Virus record (IMG/VR): IMGVR_UViG_3300046683_000150
Location: 1-20,156 of that record
Source of the DNA: a virus
DNA: 20,156 nt
Strand: one strand, 5' to 3'
Of the stretch, positions 1 through 20,156 are shown piece by piece. Positions within the stretch are counted from its first letter, which is position 1. Each line of letters starts with the position of its first letter. The position numbers and the translations under genes were made by a program. The notes beneath the pieces are model-generated. The model made no database searches. It saw only the letters and a program-made list of their open reading frames with translations, and was not told the DNA's origin.

Positions 1-31
1 GGGCGCCTTGCGCGCGGCCATAAATCACGCG

Positions 32-58
32 TTTTCAACGAGATACAGCTGTTATAGT
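32..58 (+). promoter_or_regulatory. Possible promoter upstream of the late operon
   Basis: A TATAGT hexamer at 53-58 (5 of 6 to TATAAT) lies 43 bases before the first convincing start codon at 101. The only upstream partner is a weak TTTTCA at 32-37 with a short 15-base spacer. The AT-rich patch stands out in a GC-rich window. The same TATAGT hexamer occurs as the likely -10 of the repressor gene. It is a weak call: late promoters of unknown hosts cannot be recognised reliably by eye. Confidence 0.25.
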
Positions 59-100
59 CGGGTCGGTGGTGCATGCGTGTGCAGTCTCGAGGGGGATCGG

Positions 101-367
101 ATGGGGTTCACAGGGGATCAATGGGTCGAGCGGGGCCAATGGTGGCCGGGGATGTTTGGGCGGTTGCTGATGGGGGTGCGGGCCGTCGATCCAGGGTGGG
201 AGGATTTCGTCCGGCATTTCGTCCTAAAGGGCGGCGTGCCGTTGGAGTGGCGCGGGGCCGTGCCGGATGCCGCGATGCGGGTCGCGGTGGCCGCGGTCGC
301 GGGCGCGGACGCGGGGGCGTTGGCGCGTCGGCTGAAAGCGTTGGAGTGGCGGGAAGACGGTTTGTAG
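101..367 (+). CDS. Small hypothetical phage protein (88 aa)
   Basis: No family is recognised. ATG at 101 is preferred over the upstream in-frame ATG at 8 because a purine-rich GAGGGGGA lies at a good distance (about 88-95) and the residues encoded before 101 look non-coding. The protein is rich in Trp, Gly and Val in its first half and ends in an Ala-rich, probably helical stretch (residues about 55-88). It is the first gene before the packaging genes. A terminase small subunit often sits in this position, but I see no helix-turn-helix and the protein is short for that role. It ends 53 bases before the next start, with no gene between. Confidence 0.45.
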   Translation: MGFTGDQWVERGQWWPGMFGRLLMGVRAVDPGWEDFVRHFVLKGGVPLEWRGAVPDAAMRVAVAAVAGADAGALARRLKALEWREDGL

Positions 368-420
368 ATGCACGGGCAAGAGGGTGGATTGAGGGGCGAA
401 ATGGAATAGGTGGTGTAGCA

Positions 421-951
421 ATGAAGTTTCCAAAGGGTCCAGCAGTTCGTGTGAGCGTCCGAAAGGAACACATCACGACAGCGGTGGAGGCAAATTCCAC
501 AAAGTGTTGGATTGCCGAAGCGGTGCGGGCCGCGATCCCGAAAGCGCAAAACGTGGCGGTAGATGTGGCGACGACGCGATTCAGTGATTTGGAGGCTGGG
601 TATCGTTACGTCTATCTGACGCCGTACGCTGCACAAAAGGCCTTGTTAGAATTTGACGAAGGCATCACGCCGGCGCCGTTTAGTTTTCTGCTGCGAAATG
701 CCCACGTCACGCGCGCGGGTACCCAGCCGGCAACGAAGGCGCGGCGGGCGAACACGAAGGCGAAGCGGCAAAAACACCATGATCCTGTTCAGATGATCAG
801 GACCGAACGCGATGCCGAGAAAGGTGCATTGCCGCGGCGAGCGGGTGGGAAGCGTCCACCGCAGTTACGCTCCTTGCGTCAGTTCGGCGTGCGAGCATTC
901 CGCGGAGCATCAAAGGCACGCCTGGAAGCGTTAGCAGGCGCGACAAAATGA
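421..951 (+). CDS. Conserved-looking phage hypothetical protein, compositionally foreign (176 aa)
   Basis: ATG at 421 follows an AGGTGG motif at about 409-414. The N-terminal half (residues about 8-100) looks like a folded domain, with alternating strands and a KAxLxFD-type motif. From memory this style of protein (MKxPKGPxVxVxVRxEHI, later FxFxLRxxxVT) recurs as an unnamed protein in phage and metagenome contigs; I know no function. The C-terminal 75 residues are strongly basic (many Arg and Lys), suggesting nucleic-acid contact. Its base composition is clearly lower in GC than its neighbours (about 45-60% by line), and it uses TTG-GAG and CTG-GAA for Leu-Glu where most genes here use CTC-GAG. 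This fits recent acquisition. It ends one base before the terminase start. Confidence 0.6.
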   Translation: MKFPKGPAVRVSVRKEHITTAVEANSTKCWIAEAVRAAIPKAQNVAVDVATTRFSDLEAGYRYVYLTPYAAQKALLEFDEGITPAPFSFLLRNAHVTRAGTQPATKARRANTKAKRQKHHDPVQMIRTERDAEKGALPRRAGGKRPPQLRSLRQFGVRAFRGASKARLEALAGATK

Positions 952-952
952 C

Positions 953-2797
953 GTGAACGGGCAACAACGGTTTGACGAGGCGTGGGGCATTCCGGCGCCG
1001 CGGGGCCGGGGCCGGCCGCGGCTCGAGGATGACGACAAAGCGAAGCGCGGGACGTTGCGGCCGCATCGGGTCCGCGCGCGGCTCGCGGCGCTGGCGAAGG
1101 CAGAACCGGCGCCGACGGCGGCGCTCGTGCCGGCGCGCGACTACGCGACGATCGCGGGGACGTATGCGGCCGATGTCCTGGCGGGCCGGATCGTGGCGTG
1201 TCGGTGGGTGCGCCTGGCGCTCGAGCGGGACGCGCGCGATCGGGCGACGTGGGGCGACGCCGGCGCGTACGCCTGGGATCCGGCGCAGGGCGCCGCGGCG
1301 TGTCACTTTCTCGAGCAGTTGCCGCACGTCGAAGGCGCGTGGTCGACGGCGACGGTCCGGCTCGAGCCGTGGCAAGTGTGGTTCGTGCTGACGCTCTACG
1401 GCTGGCGGCAACGGGCCGAACCGGCGCGGCGGCGGTTTACGTCGGTGTATCTCGAGCTCGGACGGAAGGGCGCGAAATCGACGCTCATGGCCGGCCTGCT
1501 GCTATATCACGTCTGCCGGGAAGATGAACCGGGCGCGTCGGTCGTGTGCGGCGCGTCGACGGGCGCGCAAGCGCGGATCGTGTTCACGATCGCACAACGG
1601 ATGGTCCGGCGGTCGCTGTGGTTGCGGGAACAAGGGCTCCAGGCGTTTCAGCATTCGATTTTCACGCCGGACGCGGTGATCAAACCGATCAATTCCAAAG
1701 CGTCGACGCAGGACGGGCTGAATCCGTCGTGTATTGTGCTCGACGAAGCGCACGCGCAAACCTTCGCGCTGCATGATGTGTTGAAAAGCGCGCAAGGGGC
1801 GCGGCGGAATCCGCTGCTCCTGTGTCCGACGACGGCCGGCTATAACCTGCTCTCAGTCGGGTACGCGCTCCGCACGACGGTGACGAAGGTGCTCGAGCGC
1901 GCCGTGTCGGTCGATCATTTGCTCGGGCTCGTGTACGGGTTGGACGCGGACGACGATTGGCGCGATGAACGGGTCTGGATCAAAGCCAATCCCATGATCG
2001 GCGTCACGCCGTCGTATGAGTGGGTCAAAAATTACTGCGCGGACGCGCAAGCGACGCCGGGGCTCGAGGCGGAGTTCCGGATCAAGGTCTGCTCGGAGTG
2101 GGCGAACGCGGCAAGCTCGTGGCTGTCGTTGTCGGCGTGGGATCGGTGTGCGGATCCGTCGCTGCGGCTCGAGCAGTTCGCCGGGGCGCCGTGCTGGATC
2201 GGGGGCGACCTGGCGCAACTCGACGACCTGGCGGCGGTCGCGTATGTGTTCGAACGGGCCGGCAAGCTGGTCGCGTTCGTGCGGTTCTATTTGCCGGAAC
2301 TCGTGGTGCAATCGCGGGCGCGCGCCATTCCGCAATATCTCGAGTGGGTCCGCGAGGGGCTGTTGACGCTGACGCCGGGGAATATGATCGACTACGCGAC
2401 GATCGAAGCGGATCTCCGCGCGGCGTGCCGGCGGTTCGAGGTGCGCGCGCTGGTCTTCGATCAATACGGATCCGTGCAATTAACGGGATCGCTGGCGAAC
2501 GACGGCTATCCGGCGCGGGTCGAACCGAAAAGCGCGAAAACGATGACGCTGCCGGCGCGGGAGCTCGAGGGGCGCGTCAATGCGGGCTTGTTCGCGCACG
2601 ATGGGAACTCGTGTTTGCGGTGGCAAGCGTCGAATGTGGTCGTGACGCGGCGCACGGATGATACGTTATTGCCGAAGAAAGATACCGCGGAGTCCGCCAA
2701 CAAGATCGACGGGATCGATGCGCTGCTTGAAGCGATGGGCGCCTGGCTCGCGGAGCAGGCGCGCGCGGCGCCGGCGTATCAGATGGTGATCATGTGA
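953..2797 (+). CDS. terL: Terminase large subunit
   Basis: This is the ATP-driven DNA-packaging motor with a headful or cos nuclease. At 614 residues it has the usual size for the Terminase_1/TerL family. The ATPase domain carries a Walker A GRKGAKST at 170-177 and a Walker B CIVLDEAHA around 260-268 with D264-E265. The C-terminal RNase H-like nuclease shows the expected acidic positions: D419 in GGDLAQLDDLAA, D503 in LVFDQYG, and D586/D589 in KIDGIDALLEA. The start is a GTG at 953; Shine-Dalgarno support is weak. The first 30 residues form a basic tail containing an AT-hook-like RGRPR motif (about 18-25) that is repeated in the small protein at 3021. No obvious terminase small subunit lies next to it. 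The last four bases overlap the next gene (GTGA). Confidence 0.95.
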   Translation: MNGQQRFDEAWGIPAPRGRGRPRLEDDDKAKRGTLRPHRVRARLAALAKAEPAPTAALVPARDYATIAGTYAADVLAGRIVACRWVRLALERDARDRATWGDAGAYAWDPAQGAAACHFLEQLPHVEGAWSTATVRLEPWQVWFVLTLYGWRQRAEPARRRFTSVYLELGRKGAKSTLMAGLLLYHVCREDEPGASVVCGASTGAQARIVFTIAQRMVRRSLWLREQGLQAFQHSIFTPDAVIKPINSKASTQDGLNPSCIVLDEAHAQTFALHDVLKSAQGARRNPLLLCPTTAGYNLLSVGYALRTTVTKVLERAVSVDHLLGLVYGLDADDDWRDERVWIKANPMIGVTPSYEWVKNYCADAQATPGLEAEFRIKVCSEWANAASSWLSLSAWDRCADPSLRLEQFAGAPCWIGGDLAQLDDLAAVAYVFERAGKLVAFVRFYLPELVVQSRARAIPQYLEWVREGLLTLTPGNMIDYATIEADLRAACRRFEVRALVFDQYGSVQLTGSLANDGYPARVEPKSAKTMTLPARELEGRVNAGLFAHDGNSCLRWQASNVVVTRRTDDTLLPKKDTAESANKIDGIDALLEAMGAWLAEQARAAPAYQMVIM

Positions 2798-5134: not shown

Positions 5135-5233
5135 GTACCCTCACGGCGTGCTGGTGGGCCGGTCGCGCGGGTTCCTGGGCGGGGCAAGCGCGGCCGGCCT
5201 GATTTCGTTCTTGGTGGAGTGCAAGGGGGTCGG

Positions 5234-6631
5234 GTGCGGGTCCTGGGGCTCGAGATTCGCCGGGCATTGAAGCCGGTCGCGGCGCGACGGGACGGCGGCG
5301 GGCCGGTCGTGATCCGGGAGCCGTTTACGGGCGCCTGGCAATCGAACGCGGACCTGACGGCCGACGGCGTGTTCTGCAATCCGGTCCTGTTCGCGTGTCT
5401 CGATTTGATTGCGCGCGAGATCGGGAAGATGCGGCTCCGCCTGGTCGCGCGCGACGCGATCGGCATCTGGCACGAAACCACGAATCCCGCGTATACGCCG
5501 GTGCTCCGCCGGCCGAATCGGTACCAGACGACACAAAAGTTTGTGGAGTGCTGGATCCTGTCGAAGTGCGCGCACGGGAACGCCTACATCCTGAAAGAGC
5601 GCGACGCGCGCGGCGTGGTCAAGGCGCTCTATCCGTTGGATCCGGCGCGCGTGTCGGTGCTCGTGAGCGACGATGGCGGCGTGTATTACGAGCTCGCGGC
5701 CGATGTGCTGAAGCAAGTGCCGCGGAGCGACACGGGCGGGATCGTGGTGCCGGCATCCGAGATCATTCACGATCCGATGGTGCTGTTGTGGTCGCCGCTG
5801 ATCGGCGTGTCCCCGATTACGGCGTGCGGCGCGACGGCGCTCCAGGCGCTCAGCATTCAACAGGATCAATCGACGTTCTTCCAAAACGGCGCGCGGCCGT
5901 CGGGGGTGCTCAAGGTACCGGGGGCGCTGACGACGGAGAAAGCGGCGGCGCTGAAGCAACAATTTCGCGAACTGTTCAGCGGGGCGAATAGCGGCAACGT
6001 CGCGGTGCTGACGGACGGGATGTTGTTCGAACCGATGCGCATGAACGCGGTTGATACACAGCTGATCGACCAATTGAAACTGAGCGGCGAAACGATCTGC
6101 GCCTGCTACCACGTGCCGTTCTACATGGTGAACCAGGGCGCGGCGCCGGCGAATCTCGATGCCGAAAGCCTGGTGCAGTTGTTCTATTCCCAGTGCTTGC
6201 AGAGTCTCACGACGGCGTTTGAGACGTCACTGGATGCCGGGCTCGAGCTCGCGGACGATCTGGGGACCGAGTTCGACATTGACGATTTGATCTGGATGAA
6301 CTCCGACGTGCGGACGCGATCCGCGAAGGAGTCGATCGGATCGGGGGCGCTGTCGCCGGACGAAGCGCGCGCGAAGTACTTCGGCCTCGGGCCGGTGCCG
6401 GGCGGCGCGTCGCCGTACATGCAGCAACAATATTTCAGTCTCGAGGCGTTGGCGGCGCGGGACGCGGCCGAACCAGCGCCGGCGACGGGGACGGCGGCGG
6501 ACGCCATGCCGGCCGAAGTCAAAGCGGCGCCGGCGCTCGAGGCCGCGGCGCTGGATGTGGCGGCGTATGGGGCGCGGACGCGGGCGGCGCTGCTGGCGCG
6601 GCGGGAGAGGTGGATCGATGCTGTCGCCTGA
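5234..6631 (+). CDS. Portal protein (HK97 family)
   Basis: This is the dodecameric portal ring at the capsid vertex, through which DNA enters and to which the tail attaches. The length of 465 residues is normal. Recognisable features are the early LFACLDLIAREIG helix, the HGNAYILKERD strand, the IIHDPM...SPLIGVSPI loop (about 170-195), the FFQNGARPSGVLKVPG segment, the GNVAVLTDGMLFEPM stretch and the ICACYHVPFYMV helix. A GALSPDEARAKYFGLGPVPGG tail motif follows. GTG at 5234 is chosen because AAGGGGG lies just upstream; an in-frame GTG at 5219 would add five residues but has no ribosome site. The Ala/Pro-rich end (about 415-450) is probably flexible. It overlaps the next gene by 14 bases. The 99 bases before it hold only a doubtful 40-codon frame. 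Confidence 0.93.
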   Translation: MRVLGLEIRRALKPVAARRDGGGPVVIREPFTGAWQSNADLTADGVFCNPVLFACLDLIAREIGKMRLRLVARDAIGIWHETTNPAYTPVLRRPNRYQTTQKFVECWILSKCAHGNAYILKERDARGVVKALYPLDPARVSVLVSDDGGVYYELAADVLKQVPRSDTGGIVVPASEIIHDPMVLLWSPLIGVSPITACGATALQALSIQQDQSTFFQNGARPSGVLKVPGALTTEKAAALKQQFRELFSGANSGNVAVLTDGMLFEPMRMNAVDTQLIDQLKLSGETICACYHVPFYMVNQGAAPANLDAESLVQLFYSQCLQSLTTAFETSLDAGLELADDLGTEFDIDDLIWMNSDVRTRSAKESIGSGALSPDEARAKYFGLGPVPGGASPYMQQQYFSLEALAARDAAEPAPATGTAADAMPAEVKAAPALEAAALDVAAYGARTRAALLARRERWIDAVA

Positions 6632-9977: not shown

Positions 9978-11936
9978 ATGCCGATTACCGGAACGTTCCT
10001 GGCCGATTTCTCGCAATTCGTGTCCGAGGTCAACACCGCGGTCGTCGCGCTCGACGGGTTGACGAGTGACGCCGACAAAGCGCAAGCGGCGCTGACGGAA
10101 GTGGCCGGCGTGGATCCGGCCGGCCTCGAGGCGACGGCGGCGGCGGCGAAGGATCTGGGGACCGCGGTCGCGGACGTGCATCCGGGGCTGACGGCGACGG
10201 CGACGGCGGCGCGGCAGGTGACGCAGGACACGGACAGCATGAGCGGGGCGTTTGCGCAGGCGAAAAGCCTGGCGGCGGCGCTCGGGATCGGGTTGTCGGT
10301 GGGCGCGGTCGTGGCCTACGGGCGCGCGATGATCGACACGGCCGGCCAGATTCAAAAGATGGCGGACGCGACGGGGTTGACGACGGATCAAGTACAAGGG
10401 CTGATGGCGGCGGCGGATCAAACCAGTACGCCGATCGGCGCGTTCGAATCCGCGATCCAGGCGTTGCAGCAAAAAATCGGGTCCGGCGATACGGGGTTGA
10501 TTGCGGCGACGCGGGCGCTCGGGTTGTCGTGGGACGAGCTCCGCCGGATGTCGCCGTATGAGGCGATGACCACGTACGCCGGCGCGTTGCAAGGCGTCGA
10601 CGATCAAAACCGGCAAGCGGCGCTCGGCGTCGACGTGTTCGGGAAGTCGTGGCGGGAGCTCGGCGCCGCGGTCAAGGCGGGGGCACTCGAGGTCGCGGAC
10701 AATGCGCCAAAGATGAGCGCCGGCGCGATTACGACGCTGAACGCGCTCGATGCCAAGCTGAAAGAAACGAAGCAAAACTTTCTGGTATTTGCGGCGGACA
10801 TCGTGGCGGCGATGGCCGGCGAGAAAACATCCGAGGGGCTGAAGCACGCGAAGGAACAGGCGGACGCGGCGGCGGCGGCGTTGCCGAAGGTCACGGACGC
10901 GGCGCGGGCGATGGTGGAGCCGCTCACCGTCTCGACGACGGCGACGATCAATTTGGCGTTGCAGCAACGGTTACTCGCGGCCGATGTCGAGCGGGCGGCG
11001 GCGGCGGCGGCGTTCCTGACTAAGTGGAAGGACGCGATGGTCGAACTCCACGACGTGGGGCAGACCTGGTATCAAACGCTGCTGTCCATCGATGGCGAAG
11101 TGGTCGAAGCGGTGCGCTATTACCTGGCGGCCGGCGTGCAACAGGGCGTATTGGCGGCGGCGTATGGGTTGACGTCGGAGCAGGTGGCCGCGGTCGCCGA
11201 TGGGGTGAAGGCGTACACGGGCGCCAACGAGGCGGCGTTGGCGATCGGCGCGAAGGTGCTCGAGGCGCACGCGGCCGAAGTCAAGGCGCTCCAGGACGAC
11301 GTAAACGCGCGGAACGCGGCGATCCTGAAAACCAAAGAGGCGGACGCGACCAATCAGGCCTATTACGTGCGGCTCGCGGACGAGGCGCGCGTCGCGTACG
11401 AAATTGCGGCGCAGGCGGGGAGCGGCTACACGGCGGCGCGGATCGAACAATTGCGGCAAGAGTCCGAGGCGGCGACGGCGACGCTCCAGAATTGGCAAAC
11501 CGCCGCGGAGCAGGCCATGAGTAGCACGGGCAACGCGGTCGACGCGACGCGCGCCCAGATCGCGGCGTTGAATGCCGAACTTGCGACGCCGTTGGCGACG
11601 ATCCGGGGCGAGGTGGCGCCGGGCTACGTGTCGCCGTTCGGGCCGGTGCCGGGGATGGGCGGCCGACTCCCCGCGGGCGCGGGGGGCAGCGTGTCGGCGG
11701 CGGACGCGGACGCGTATCGGCCGGCGAGCTATGGCGCGCTTGGGAATGTGTTTATTCAGCCGCCGACGAGTCTGGTCGGGCGGTTTCGCACGGAGGCGCC
11801 GGTCATCAACGTGCAGTCCGGCGCCGTGACGATGAACTACCCGATCATGAATGATCCGGCGGCGTTGCAGCAATTGGGCGATACGGTCGGGCGCGCGATC
11901 CTGTCGAACGTGACACGCACGGGCACGCCGGTATGA
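9978..11936 (+). CDS. Tail tape measure protein
   Basis: A 652-residue, mostly helical Ala-rich protein that would set tail length and later leave with the DNA. The N-terminal 95 residues are coiled-coil-like. A hydrophobic stretch lies at about 98-114 (LAAALGIGLSVGAVVAY). After it comes the typical tape-measure block MIDTAGQIQKMADATGLTTDQVQGLMAAAD...ALGLSWDELRRMSPYEAM...QAALGVDVFGKSW (about 117-225). Further helices follow, and then a Gly/Pro-rich end. At about 0.15 nm per residue (family rule of thumb) the tail would be near 100 nm. It starts three bases after the chaperone stop and overlaps the hub gene by four bases (ATGA). Confidence 0.92.
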   Translation: MPITGTFLADFSQFVSEVNTAVVALDGLTSDADKAQAALTEVAGVDPAGLEATAAAAKDLGTAVADVHPGLTATATAARQVTQDTDSMSGAFAQAKSLAAALGIGLSVGAVVAYGRAMIDTAGQIQKMADATGLTTDQVQGLMAAADQTSTPIGAFESAIQALQQKIGSGDTGLIAATRALGLSWDELRRMSPYEAMTTYAGALQGVDDQNRQAALGVDVFGKSWRELGAAVKAGALEVADNAPKMSAGAITTLNALDAKLKETKQNFLVFAADIVAAMAGEKTSEGLKHAKEQADAAAAALPKVTDAARAMVEPLTVSTTATINLALQQRLLAADVERAAAAAAFLTKWKDAMVELHDVGQTWYQTLLSIDGEVVEAVRYYLAAGVQQGVLAAAYGLTSEQVAAVADGVKAYTGANEAALAIGAKVLEAHAAEVKALQDDVNARNAAILKTKEADATNQAYYVRLADEARVAYEIAAQAGSGYTAARIEQLRQESEAATATLQNWQTAAEQAMSSTGNAVDATRAQIAALNAELATPLATIRGEVAPGYVSPFGPVPGMGGRLPAGAGGSVSAADADAYRPASYGALGNVFIQPPTSLVGRFRTEAPVINVQSGAVTMNYPIMNDPAALQQLGDTVGRAILSNVTRTGTPV

Positions 11937-15039: not shown

Positions 15040-15561
15040 ATGCCGATCAATCGGGCGCCGTTTAACGCGCTGGTCGATGACGACGGGAGCAACAGTCTTG
15101 GCACGCCGTGGAATAAAGCGGCGATCGCGGGCGTGATCCTGGATCCGGTGGATGCGGCGCTGACGCAGGCGTGGCAAACGGTGCCGTTTAGCGCGGCGAA
15201 TTTTTCCGCCGCGGCGCCGCTGGTGTGGACGGTCGGATCGGCGGCGGTGATCCGGAACCGCTATACGCTCAGCGGCAAGATCCTGTTTTGGAGTATCTAT
15301 CTCTCGTGGTTTAGCGGCGGCAATGTGCTGAGCGGATCCGCCGGGCCGGCGCTCTATCTGACGCTCCCGGCGGGGCTGTCGGGGCAAGCCCAAAGCGTGA
15401 CGATCGATTTTACCGCGGGGATCGCGGGGATCCCGGCGTCGGCGGGGCTCTACGGGTCCCCGAATAATACGCGGCTCGAGCTGTCGAAAAGCGTGGGCGG
15501 CAATTTTGCGGTCACGGACGTGCCGGGCATGAACTTCAATATCTGGATCGAGACCACCTGA
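15040..15561 (+). CDS. Distal tail/receptor-binding-type hypothetical protein (173 aa)
   Basis: ATG at 15040 with GGGAG (15028-15032) upstream, two bases after the hub stop. The N-terminus has a DDDGSNSLGTPWNKAAIAGVILDPVDAAL motif of a kind I recall at the start of phage tail-associated proteins. It is followed by a W-containing beta domain with YTLSGKILFWSIYLSW and LYLTLPAGLSG strands and a final FNIWIET strand. It probably forms a small beta-rich tip or fibre subunit, given its place at the end of the tail operon. No catalytic motif is seen. The stop overlaps the next start (TGATG). Confidence 0.65.
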   Translation: MPINRAPFNALVDDDGSNSLGTPWNKAAIAGVILDPVDAALTQAWQTVPFSAANFSAAAPLVWTVGSAAVIRNRYTLSGKILFWSIYLSWFSGGNVLSGSAGPALYLTLPAGLSGQAQSVTIDFTAGIAGIPASAGLYGSPNNTRLELSKSVGGNFAVTDVPGMNFNIWIETT

Positions 15562-15866
15562 TGGCGCAGCCCTTTCCCCCGCAAGGCGATCAACACCAGT
15601 ACACGGAGCGTCCGCTGAAGATCTATGGCGAACAGTGCGTCGCGGGCGGGCCGCTGCCGGTGGGCGTCCAGACGACGGCGCCGGGCGGCGCGACGACCCC
15701 GCCGTACGTGATCGACGCGGCCGGGCGGTATTGGCCGGTGCCGGTCGGGGCGTGGGTTGTCTCGAGTCGGTATAGCGGGGCGGTGCTCGAGGTGCTGTCG
15801 GACGAGGAATTTACGGAGCGGTTTGGGGGCGGCGGCGGGCCGACGGGGCTGCCGACGGGGGGCTAG
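15561..15866 (+). CDS. Small hypothetical protein ending the tail operon (101 aa)
   Basis: ATG at 15561 overlaps the previous stop by one base. The protein begins with a polar segment (PPQGDQHQYTERPLKIYGEQC), has a Thr/Pro/Gly-rich centre, then a strand region (YWPVPVGAWVVSSRYSGAVLEVL) and a Gly-rich end. I recognise no family. It is the last gene before the attachment region and so could be a virion tip protein or a lysogeny-time accessory gene; context favours the former. Confidence 0.6.
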   Translation: MAQPFPPQGDQHQYTERPLKIYGEQCVAGGPLPVGVQTTAPGGATTPPYVIDAAGRYWPVPVGAWVVSSRYSGAVLEVLSDEEFTERFGGGGGPTGLPTGG

Positions 15867-15879
15867 GGCGGAAGGGATG

Positions 15880-15892
15880 GGCGGAAGCCGCC
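15880..15892 (+). terminator. Weak hairpin after the tail operon
   Basis: GGCGG at 15880-15884 and CCGCC at 15888-15892 can pair around an AAG loop, 13 bases after the last tail stop. No T-run follows, so it would be a weak or factor-dependent terminator at best. Confidence 0.25.
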
Positions 15893-15935
15893 GCAAGGTG
15901 TGGGACGGTCAGGAGTTAGGGCGTGGGGGATCCGG

Positions 15936-15980
15936 CTCCTAAGCGGTAGGTCGTTGGTTCAAATCCAACCGGGCGCACCA
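15936..15980 (+). other. attP core: 3' half of tRNA-Arg(CCT)
   Basis: From the anticodon loop onward every element of a tRNA is present: loop CTCCTAA (15936-15942, anticodon CCT), 3' anticodon strand GCGGT, 5-base variable loop, T stem GTTGG/CCAAC around TTCAAAT (15953-15969), acceptor strand CGGGCGC (15970-15976), discriminator A, and CCA. The bases before 15936 do not pair: TCCGG does not match GCGGT, and no GCGCCCG acceptor strand lies at the required distance. So only the 3' half is here. Known tyrosine integrases often recombine inside tRNA anticodon loops, so this is the likely identity segment that rebuilds the host tRNA on integration. Confidence 0.85.
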
Positions 15981-16001
15981 TTAAATCCTCAATAAAACTG
16001 C

Positions 16002-16048
16002 GCTGTTTCGGTTTAACTTCGCGTTGACTTCCGCGCTCGGCTGTTTCG
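16002..16048 (+). repeat. Direct repeat GCTGTTTCG
   Basis: Two identical 9-mers at 16002-16010 and 16040-16048, spaced 38 bases start to start, flank an ACTTCGCG / ACTTCCGCG near-repeat. They lie 22-68 bases from the end of the tRNA fragment. Confidence 0.6.
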
Positions 16049-16118
16049 TCTGACTCTGAAAAACTCCTAACAAATCCGACCATATCCACAACAGTGCGCG
16101 GAAGAAGTGCGCGGAAGT
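16027..16118. repeat. GCGCGGAAG repeat set, two direct and one inverted copy
   Basis: ACTTCCGCGC at 16027-16036 is the exact reverse complement of GCGCGGAAGT at 16109-16118. A further copy, AGTGCGCGGAAG, at 16093-16104 is repeated at 16106-16117 with a 13-base period. These are candidate arm-type sites for integrase or excisionase. Confidence 0.65.
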
Positions 16119-16230
16119 TTTCCCGGGCGATGGGCCGGTATCGGCCGGGCTGGATCTGGCAGTACTGCCGGTTGGCGGCGCTGGTCATTTACAGGTATAC
16201 GATTACGGTTTCCGAATGGCTGGCGCTCGG

Positions 16231-16266
16231 GGGACGATTTGGGACGATTGGGGACGATTGGGGACG
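16231..16266 (+). repeat. Tandem 10-bp repeats GGGACGATTK
   Basis: Three full copies (16231-16240, 16241-16250, 16251-16260) and a partial fourth (GGGACG, 16261-16266) repeat with an exact 10-base period, close to one helical turn. This would place bound protein copies on one face of the DNA. They lie 65 bases before the 3' end of int. Confidence 0.8.
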
Positions 16267-16275
16267 CGATCCAAA

Positions 16276-16304
16276 ACTGTCCGAAAAAGTCCCTTGACTG
16301 TCCG
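16276..16304 (+). repeat. Direct repeat ACTGTCCG, 21 bp apart
   Basis: Identical 8-mers at 16276-16283 and 16297-16304 are spaced by two helical turns; the second abuts the integrase stop codon. They are possible further arm-type binding sites. Confidence 0.5.
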
Positions 16305-17519
16305 TCAGTGTGTGAGGGGCGATTCTGGGGCCGTGGGCGCCGCCTGGGCGGGCTTTCCCTGGCGGGCGGCATGGGCGGCGGCAATGGCGGCGCCGGCGGC
16401 TCTAAGGCGCTCGGGGACGGCGCCTTGGGCATAGCGGCGCGTCGTGCGGGCGTCGGCGTGGTCGAGGAGCTCTTGCGTCGCGGGGAGGCTGCCGGTTTGC
16501 TGGTACGCGAACGTGCCGAACGAATGCCGGAGATCGTAGGGGCGCATCCTGGCGGCGTGCGACACGTCCAGATCGGGGCGGCTCTGGCGGAGTTTGGCGA
16601 CGGCGCGATCGCGGGCGCCGATGAACCGTTTCCAGAGACTCGCCTTACTCGGGACGGTTTCCCAACAGTCCGCGCGGTCGAACGCGCGGAACGCTTCGAG
16701 CGCTTCGGGGCCGATCGGTTTGATGGCGGGGAGGGTCCCGGCGCCTTTCTTGCGGCCGGGGACGAGGATCGTGCTGGCGATCCAATCGACGTTGGCGCGG
16801 GGGAGGGTCCAGAGTTGCGCGGGTGTGAGCGGCGCGTACGCGAGCACGCGGAGGCGGGCTTTCGTTTTCGACGGCGGGCGCGTGGCGCCTTTTGCGGTGC
16901 CGGTGTCGCGGAGCTCCGCCAAGATCGCATCGATAATGTCGTACGAGACGTGCCGGATCATGGCTGGCGGCTCGGCAAACTTCGGAATATCGCGCACGGG
17001 GTTGGGCGCGTTTTTCCCATCCAGCACGGTGAACAGGTGCGAGATGGCCGTGCGATAGTCGTTCTTGAGGGACGCGGACGCGGGGTGGGACGGTTTGCCT
17101 TTCTGGGCGACGGTCCAAATCGTATTCAGGGCGCGGCGGAGTTCGTCATGCTTCAGCGTGTCCCGGCGGCGGTTGGGAAACTGCGCGATGAGCCAATCGA
17201 AGTGCTGGCGCCGGGCTTGGGTGATGTTTTTCGACAGTGTGGCGGTTTTGAAGTACAGCCGCACATCGGCGGACAGTGTGCCGCGGCGCGTGTTGGCGTG
17301 GGGATCCTTGGCGCGATCGGTGAGGAGTCGCGCACGTTCGCGGGCCTGGCACGCGCGGAGCACATCGCGATCGGTGTCCAGCGGGTAGCGGTGCTCGGGG
17401 CTGCGGCGGGCGGTTTTGCCGGATCCGATCCGGACGATCACGGCATACCCGTAGGCGTCCTGATAGATGCCGGGCTCGAGGGTGATCCGGGCGGCGCGTG
17501 TCGGGCGGGGCGTGGTCAT
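16305..17519 (-). CDS. int: Tyrosine-family site-specific integrase
   Basis: The 404-residue protein catalyses phage insertion and excision at the adjacent att site. Residues 80-180 form a SAM-like core-binding domain (LYFKTATLSKNITQARRQHFDWLIAQF). Residues about 188-375 form the catalytic domain. It shows the second Arg in RPYDLRHSFGT (R331, H332, with Y328 where His is usual), the beta-hairpin Lys in ILVPGRKKGAG (K257/K258), H354 in LLDHADARTTRRY, and the nucleophile Y363. The first-Arg motif, normally TGLRxxE, reads APLTPAQ (229-235), so the canonical Arg is replaced by Thr at 232; nearby R222 or R224 might substitute. The Ala/Pro-rich end (about 375-404) is a flexible tail. The ATG is at 17519 on the reverse strand, immediately after its promoter palindrome. 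Confidence 0.93.
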   Translation of the reverse strand: MTTPRPTRAARITLEPGIYQDAYGYAVIVRIGSGKTARRSPEHRYPLDTDRDVLRACQARERARLLTDRAKDPHANTRRGTLSADVRLYFKTATLSKNITQARRQHFDWLIAQFPNRRRDTLKHDELRRALNTIWTVAQKGKPSHPASASLKNDYRTAISHLFTVLDGKNAPNPVRDIPKFAEPPAMIRHVSYDIIDAILAELRDTGTAKGATRPPSKTKARLRVLAYAPLTPAQLWTLPRANVDWIASTILVPGRKKGAGTLPAIKPIGPEALEAFRAFDRADCWETVPSKASLWKRFIGARDRAVAKLRQSRPDLDVSHAARMRPYDLRHSFGTFAYQQTGSLPATQELLDHADARTTRRYAQGAVPERLRAAGAAIAAAHAARQGKPAQAAPTAPESPLTH

Positions 17520-18988: not shown

Positions 18989-19344
18989 AACCTATGACGG
19001 GCGAATTCTTTTACGTCGATCGGTGGCTGGCCTCGAGTGCATTCGCGCTGCCGATTGAGGTCCGCGGGCTTTATCGCGAAATGTTATCGCGCGCGTGGCT
19101 GAACGGCGCGAAATTGCCGAATAACCACGAAGCGATCCAGCGGTTGATCGGCGCGAGTGCGGCGGAATGGCGCCGGTGCTGGCCGTTGGTCGCGAAGTAC
19201 TGGCGGATCGACGGCGCGGACATGGTGAACGATGTCCAGCGTCAGATTTATGCGGCGTCGCTGGCGCGGTCGGCGCGCGCGCGGCATGGCGCGGCATCCA
19301 AAGCGCGACGCTCAGCGAGTGTGCTCGCGCGCGTGAAGGGATGA
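18985..19344 (+). CDS. DUF1376-type phage replication protein, short form
   Basis: The core GEFFYVDRWLASSAFALPIEVRGLYREMLSRAWLNGAKLPNNHEAIQRLIGASAAEWRRCWPLVAKYWRIDGADMVND matches the DUF1376 pattern (Y.xDxxLxSxxfxLxxExRGLYxxLLxxaWxxGgxLPxDxxxLarxxGxxxxEWxxxWpxVxxxf). Such proteins sit in phage replication modules and are often fused or adjacent to helicase-loader-like parts. The product here (about 119 residues) stops soon after the domain with a basic tail (ARARHGAASKARRSASVLARVKG); relatives I recall are often longer. GTG 18985 is chosen for its GTGA coupling; ATG 18994 would remove three residues. Confidence 0.7.
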   Translation: MKPMTGEFFYVDRWLASSAFALPIEVRGLYREMLSRAWLNGAKLPNNHEAIQRLIGASAAEWRRCWPLVAKYWRIDGADMVNDVQRQIYAASLARSARARHGAASKARRSASVLARVKG

Positions 19345-19590
19345 CGCCTAATAGGTGCTCAATGAGTGCTCCACGCGCTGCTTACATAGTGCTCGCGCCG
19401 CTGCTGAAAGCCTGCTCACGCGTCACGCAAATCTCTGCGATCGACGATTTGAGCAACCGCATCTCTTATCTCTTATCTCTTTGTAGCATTTGGGTACTTG
19501 TGAGATAGGGCGTGTGGAAAAGTCGAGCATTTCGCCATGAACGGAAACGGGTCAAGCACTTACGTTGTGGAAAAGCCTGTGGATGACGTG
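19345..19590. other. Candidate phage replication origin
   Basis: The gap after the DUF1376 gene is more AT-rich than its surroundings. It contains a tandem TCTCTTA-type repeat (about 19462-19483) and three DnaA-box-like motifs: TGTGGAAAA at 19513-19521 and at 19566-19574, and TGTGGATGA at 19578-19586. Each differs by one base from TGTGGATAA. The last two fall inside the start of the next gene. This combination, next to a replication-type gene, suggests an origin with an AT-rich unwinding stretch. Only 9-mer matches support it. No coding sequence is convincing in 19345-19536. Confidence 0.4.
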
Positions 19591-19761
19591 ATCCGAATCA
19601 TCGCGAATCCGCTGTGCATCTGGCGGATCCATTGCGGCGGCATGGCGCGGATCGGCGTCGCGATCCGGAATGCGGCGGGGACGTGTGAACACCGGACGAT
19701 CGATTGCCTGAAATGCGGGCGACGGGTGGGGCTCCAGAGTCGGAACCTGGAAGCGCGATGA
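19537..19761 (+). CDS. Small Cys-containing early hypothetical protein (74 aa)
   Basis: The 74-residue protein begins at ATG 19537 with no clear ribosome site. It ends with an ATGA overlap into the next gene, which supports it being translated. The Cys/His residues C27, C33, C50, H52, C57 and C60 (CEHRTIDCLKCGRR) could bind one zinc ion. The centre (DDVIRIIANPLCIWRIHCGGMARIGVAI) looks beta-rich. No family is recognised. Its first codons overlap the DnaA-box-like motifs. Confidence 0.5.
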   Translation: MNGNGSSTYVVEKPVDDVIRIIANPLCIWRIHCGGMARIGVAIRNAAGTCEHRTIDCLKCGRRVGLQSRNLEAR

Positions 19762-19964
19762 AACCGGTGACACGACGCGACCGGCTGGCGGCGATCGGAC
19801 GCGAGGATGCGCGGAATCGCTGCGCCTGGTGCCGGATCAATCTGCTCACGGTCGACGGGCCGATCGTCGTGACGCTCGAGGGGCGGCGGTTCTGCTCGGA
19901 TGGGTGTTTCGAGAGTTCGCAACAGTGGGACGCGTTCCAAGAGGAAAAGAGGCTGGCTAAATGA
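19758..19964 (+). CDS. Small treble-clef zinc-finger-like protein (68 aa)
   Basis: The 68-residue protein has C22-x2-C25 (CAWC) and C46-x3-C50 (CSDGC) about 20 residues apart, with a TVDGPIVVTLEGRRF strand pair between them. That is a small treble-clef/TRASH-like zinc finger pattern (FCSDGCFESSQQW at the end resembles the family's FCSxxCxxxF). It likely binds nucleic acid or a partner protein. It starts at ATG 19758 inside the previous stop and overlaps the next start (ATGA). Confidence 0.65.
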   Translation: MKPVTRRDRLAAIGREDARNRCAWCRINLLTVDGPIVVTLEGRRFCSDGCFESSQQWDAFQEEKRLAK

Positions 19965-20156
19965 GTGATTTGTATTTCTACACGACACCAATCGGCGCGG
20001 CACTCACGCTGACGCTCGATCACGGCGCGATTGTGTTGCCGGGCGTACCAGGGACGGCGAACGGACGCGACGACGCGCAACGGGTGACGCTGCCGCCGGG
20101 GACGATCTGGCAAGGGGCGACGCTCGAGGTGTCGGCGGAGTCGACGGATCCGGCGT
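19961..20156 (+). CDS. Unrecognised early protein, cut by the window end
   Basis: ATG 19961 overlaps the previous stop (ATGA), and the frame is open to the window end (65 complete codons). The visible part, starting MSDLYFYTTPIGAALTL, has beta-strand character with a TLPPGTIWQGATLEV stretch and no cysteines or enzymatic motif. The first third of the gene uses more AT-rich codons than the rest. I recognise no family; the true length is unknown. Confidence 0.55.
   Translation, partial: MSDLYFYTTPIGAALTLTLDHGAIVLPGVPGTANGRDDAQRVTLPPGTIWQGATLEVSAESTDPA

Follow-up and report, generated by a model that had tools for sequence, protein, structure and literature searches.

A probable phage attP in unintegrated layout, with the 3' half of a tRNA-Arg(CCT) gene as its core

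Positions 15866-16304 of the window (i.e. the whole stretch of viral DNA analysed, 20,156 bp, which makes up all of IMG/VR record G000) are very probably the attP of a temperate HK97-type tailed phage in its free layout, with lambda-like integration into an acidobacterial tRNA-Arg(CCT) gene. What can be seen directly in the DNA is the anatomy of the site, the circular form of relatives with the same gene order, the identity of sister-phage tRNA halves with host genes, a conserved geometry of flanking repeats, and a breakpoint in phage-phage identity at the core.

Results

From left to right, the window encodes the terminase large subunit (953-2797, plus strand; PF20441/PF03354), a head-protease/major-head fusion, the portal protein (5219-6631, plus strand; PF04860, 1.4e-72), a major tail protein, the tape measure protein (9978-11936, plus strand; phrog_9483, 5.7e-12) and further tail genes, and it is the tape measure match that identifies the operon left of the attP as a tail operon. 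Its last gene is an open reading frame of 101 aa (15561-15866, plus strand) whose stop codon abuts the attP region, and homologues of this gene (95% identity in the related contig G001, 44-45% in G215 and G216) always lie beside att and int. To the right follow the non-coding region 15867-16304, a minus-strand tyrosine integrase, HTH regulators and a DUF1376/primosomal-like gene. The contig ends interrupt open reading frames, and judged against G216 some ~9-10 kb would be missing, the int-to-terL side being partly absent. Both ends of the window (1-978 and 19270-20156) have no similarity to G001, and most of the remaining window is 70-99% identical to it. A promoter/terminator search of the attP region gave no match. 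An antisense open reading frame at 15916-16188 (minus strand) ends in MVRPVGFEPTTYRLGAGSPTP, a false peptide arising from antisense translation of the T-arm, and is probably not a gene.

The initial annotation had placed 45 bases of a tRNA-Arg(CCT) gene, from the anticodon loop to CCA and lacking the 5' half, between the tail operon and int, and this was borne out. Positions 15936-15980 (plus strand), the attP common core, parse exactly into the loop CTCCTAA, stem GCGGT, variable region AGGTC, T-arm GTTGG-TTCAAAT-CCAAC, acceptor CGGGCGC, A73 and CCA. ARAGORN calls no complete tRNA in the window and the Rfam tRNA model stays under its gathering score (20.7 vs 29 bits), from which it follows that the tRNA 5' half is absent. 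Upon shuffling of 0.85 Mb of related phage DNA, a scan for T-arm, acceptor and CCA returned 0 matches, and the real matches are mostly halves near int, which excludes a chance origin. In fact, tRNA halves adjoin int in ~20 relatives, with differing targets (Arg, Val, Glu and others). Weak Rfam matches to HPnc0260 and Plastid-ycf2 were rejected, being the T-arm on the opposite strand. A blastn search of the 61-bp core against plasmids and phages gave ordinary tRNA similarity, except for the annotated attP of epsilon34. When a host 5' half is joined computationally to the 3' half of the window, ARAGORN calls a tRNA-Arg(CCT), and the reciprocal product (the attR side) is not called, in agreement with the earlier expectation that the rebuilt host tRNA would lie beside int. 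The window phage thus carries, beside int, a tRNA 3' half that starts at about the anticodon loop, and in computation integration rebuilds an intact tRNA.

The crossover had been predicted to fall at the anticodon loop, and three observations agree with this. Firstly, identity between phage and host tRNA begins at position 32 in the G001/L125 comparison. Secondly, among 16 attPs the 5 bases to the left and the 5 to the right of the 7-nt loop pair at 65/80 positions, compared to 19.4 +/- 5.3 (maximum 31) when the left flank is slid; the window's own left flank is among the poorer ones (3/5 pairs). Core-type half-sites flanking a 7-bp overlap should show such mirror symmetry, and the loop itself (15936-15942, plus strand) is proposed as that overlap, within which the strands would be cleaved and exchanged. 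Thirdly, a change-point fit places the breakpoint in identity between the window and G001 at 15937-15951 (95% set; maximum likelihood 15947), i.e. in the anticodon loop and stem. Identity is 95.0% to the left and 66.5% to the right (~67-70% after the junction), and 92 identical bases (15855-15946) precede the drop. It is mainly in the T-stem that the two tRNA halves differ, by compensating changes (GTTGG/CCAAC in the window vs GCCAG/CTGGC in G001), as though each phage carried a different allele of the host tRNA.

G001 (IMGVR_UViG_3300046791_000128, 19.3 kb) has the same tail-attP-int order and the same junction as the window, to which it is mostly ~91-93% identical from terL to the end of the tail genes. 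At its right end, in window orientation (L007 1-150), an 81-bp stretch is tandemly repeated with a 69-bp step, a possible reason for the contig ending at this point. A relaxed pattern, with the T-stem left open, was run on viral contigs and on 84,980 genomes. Among the viral contigs it gave 5 matches, in each of which the half lies between tail genes and an int homologue. Two of these relatives share the window's order and are closed tail-attP-int molecules free of host DNA: G215 (31,851 bp, terminal repeat of 123 bp) closes to a circle of 31,728 bp, and G216 (29,673 bp, terminal repeat of 127 bp) to one of 29,546 bp, with the portal gene running through the join. In G217 and G218 both contig ends lie within one tail gene; the ends join in frame in G218 and leave a short gap in G217. 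The pairs window/G001, G215/G216 and G018/G019 are close and are not independent within their lineage.

Since relatives with this order are circular and without host DNA, the layout is an unintegrated one. The initial annotation had proposed as much for the window itself, from a circular or virion genome. This stands for the arrangement, by way of G215 and G216; the window has no terminal repeat, and as a linear fragment of 20 kb, which cannot alone prove circularity, it would by analogy come from the unintegrated form. Neither finding that would have spoken against this was seen: no host chromosome was observed beside the junction in the contigs of the group, and no complete tRNA was called in the window. 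The same junction could also arise in a chromosome, in a tandem double lysogen or a hybrid of two prophages in which tail meets int at a phage-phage att site. The breakpoint between the window and G001 at the core is the trace that a past hybrid junction would leave, but the single-copy circles G215 and G216, and the group contigs, none of which was seen to have chromosome next to the tail-int junction, make this origin improbable for the window.

On both sides of the core lie pairs of putative arm-type sites in one direction, located at -70, -57, +160 and +173 from the first base of the anticodon loop and 13 bp apart within each pair. On the left these are P1 (GGGCGGAAG, 15866-15874, plus strand; offset -70 also in G001, G215, G216 and G217) and P2 (again GGGCGGAAG, 15879-15887, plus strand; offset -57 in five phages), and on the right P'1 (GCGCGGAAG, 16096-16104, plus strand) and P'2 (the same word, 16109-16117, plus strand). 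A four-word test was applied to 16 related attPs, with targets Arg CCT/TCT/TCG/CCG, Val, Glu and others, and 200 shuffles each. It found a repeat pair on each arm in all 16, with a score that no shuffle reached in 14/16 (0/200 in the window); in G010 and G013 1/200 shuffles reached it, and the words of G010 are poor. Left pairs are mostly at -74/-61 to -70/-57 with a spacing of 11-13, G218, G009 and G013 deviating from this. The arm words vary among phages (GCGTGGAAG, TGGGGCGGG, TGGGGGAAC, GGGGCATCC, TTCCCGT, TGTTGCACA) and track the integrase, and the left arms of the window, G215 and G217 share only 29-43% identity outside the putative arm sites. A fifth, inverted arm-type site (AGCGCGGAAGT, 16027-16037, minus strand; offset +91) is possible, and inverted copies also occur at ~+81 to +102 in G004, G005, G018, G019 and G217. 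A 10-bp unit (GGGACGATTG) present three times in tandem at 16230-16266, close to the 3' end of int, is absent from G001 and was set aside as a candidate for arm sites.

Because these offsets had originally been found by inspection, the geometry was retested by a blind DNA search of the viral collection with the pattern GGAAG-N8-GGAAG-N48-CTNCTAAG. This returned 10 contigs (a raw count, without a chance expectation), comprising 4 known attPs, 5 new complete ones and 1 half site. In each of the five new contigs the tRNA-Arg(CCT) half is complete and a further pair lies on the right arm (+174 to +185); in 4/5 the fetched piece also includes an int homologue. The half site, L183 (3267-3370), has the left arm and core only, beyond which it continues into another module containing an unrelated gene on the minus strand, a repressor-like HTH gene and a further integrase-like open reading frame; it reads as a fossil half attP with a module swap at the core.

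The integrase (404 aa; 16305-17519, minus strand; PF00589, 5.7e-7; phrog_1, 4e-18) has its 3' end facing the attP, and no similarity to it was found in the phage records of the collection. In its model (mean pLDDT 83.9, pTM 0.62), strands (12-45) and a helix (51-71) at the N-terminus precede helical and catalytic domains; Foldseek matches it to Tn1549 Int and lambda Int, and hhalign aligns it colinearly with lambda Int residues 7-343 (E 0.0022, at a low probability of 13%). Together with the repeat pairs, the modelled strands and helix and the colinearity with lambda point to an N-terminal domain that would bind the arm sites. In the C-terminal half R331, H354 and Y363 are invariant in 15 sequences, and K258 is kept in 14/15 or better. 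The catalytic Arg I is lacking, with Thr232 aligned to lambda Arg212, and 14/15 aligned integrases have T, A, P, Q or E instead of Arg at this position. A literature search on integrases lacking Arg I yielded nothing of use.

Because this canonical first catalytic arginine is missing, activity of the integrase is not certain. It could be argued that the site is a relic, i.e. a fossil attP next to an inactive integrase, in line with the absent Arg I and with L183, where only the P arm and core are retained beside a foreign module. Against this, the reading frame of int is open and its product shares 70% identity over 380 residues with that of G001, arm words vary in step with the integrase, changes in the T-stem of the tRNA half are matched by compensating ones, and sister phages carry halves that equal host genes. 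Such features mark a site in present use throughout the group, and a relic is accordingly very improbable. It is hardly credible that the half is not an attachment site but cargo, or what is left of a decayed phage tRNA gene: phages do carry tRNA genes, but the first base of the half is precisely that of the anticodon loop, position-conserved repeats flank it, and it has counterparts beside int in relatives that use different tRNAs. An assembly chimera wrongly joining tail to int, conceivable for a single metagenomic contig, has next to no probability, since G001 and other contigs have this junction too, with the 92 identical bases running across it in G001.

The initial annotation had proposed a search for an exact copy of the core in bacterial tRNA-Arg(CCT) genes; this was negative for the allele of the window and positive for sister alleles, in two Acidobacteria MAGs. 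An exact 41-mer of the window was absent from the viral contigs and from the 84,980 genomes, and the nearest tRNA alleles have 2 mismatches (in 193 genomes of the class of the first MAG, Acidobacteria). The relaxed pattern had only 2 matches in the 84,980 genomes, both of them Acidobacteria MAGs with an intact tRNA-Arg(CCT). The 45-mer of G001 is identical (45/45) to the gene in RIFCSPLOWO2_02_FULL_65_29, and G215, G216 and G218 share their half with nzgw76. Since the halves of sister phages are those of acidobacterial tRNA-Arg(CCT) genes, the host of the window phage is probably an acidobacterium related to the two matched MAGs.

Neither 193 genomes of the same class nor 396 of the same phylum yielded an integrated copy of this phage group, and no portal homologues were found at 1e-40 in the 193 same-class genomes (a search with no positive control). 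Integrase matches in acidobacterial genomes, which often adjoin displaced tRNA halves, were rejected as lysogens of the group, since these halves point their anticodon end to int, unlike the window, and the G189 contig has no second att copy. Six such loci (L133, L134, L135, L136, L138 and L141) have related integrases beside tRNA 3' halves with the anticodon end toward int, the reverse of the window.

Discussion

The tRNA half, the adjacent int, the flanking repeat pairs and the exact tRNA matches of sister phages all back the proposed identity of the region as an attP. In the mechanism that we infer, a lambda-like bivalent integrase would bind the paired 9-bp arm sites on both sides of the core with its N-terminal domain, and the mirror-image half-sites around the 7-bp anticodon loop with its catalytic domain. 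Strands would be exchanged within the loop with the intact tRNA-Arg(CCT) gene of an acidobacterial host, so that the phage 3' half substitutes for the host 3' half and an intact tRNA is rebuilt beside int, running toward the int 3' end, and the displaced host half would end up beyond the tail end.

The bivalent integrase of phage lambda likewise has N-terminal arm-binding and C-terminal catalytic domains, with Int sites flanking the core. The lambda overlap is also 7 bp, and lambda integrates at a non-tRNA site. The positions of the Int sites differ from those of lambda, as does the residue at Arg212. As in epsilon34, where the attP (resembling argU) lies beside int, the 3' end of int is directed toward the attP. 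The KplE1/CPS-53 prophage sits in argW and has a bivalent integrase with arm and core sites (PMC2951348), which resembles the tRNA-Arg target and site types found here, but its duplicated core is only 16 nt. Mycobacteriophage Int-Y attPs (e.g. Boilgate, Omega, Pixie and CrimD) have a common core of 30-45 bp that includes the host tRNA 3' half (PMC10865867, PMC3203893). They share with the present site the location at the anticodon loop, paired putative arm-type sites, a lambda-like integrase, and arm words that differ among related phages. Unlike these phages of actinobacterial hosts, the window phage would have a host in the Acidobacteria, and its relatives keep the pair offsets near constant although their integrases have diverged strongly and they use several tRNA targets. 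The parts of the attP are already known from mycobacteriophages; less usual are the lack of Arg I and an arm geometry that stays nearly fixed as the words drift.

The tRNA halves link an otherwise hostless metagenomic phage group to the Acidobacteria, and a phage-phage recombination breakpoint sits on the integration core. Arm pairs and an anticodon-loop core amount to a rule based on DNA only, by which new attPs were found blind, and more than 15 natural pairs of integrase and arm word are offered for studying how recognition evolves. Tentatively, and with slightly less than even confidence, the group may represent a large uncultured temperate lineage with an integrase subfamily that lacks Arg I and is nonetheless active, near-fixed arm geometry (-70/-57; ~+150 to +185) and a drifting arm word. 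If true, it would provide a natural series to decode arm-site recognition and to show how Arg I can be replaced.
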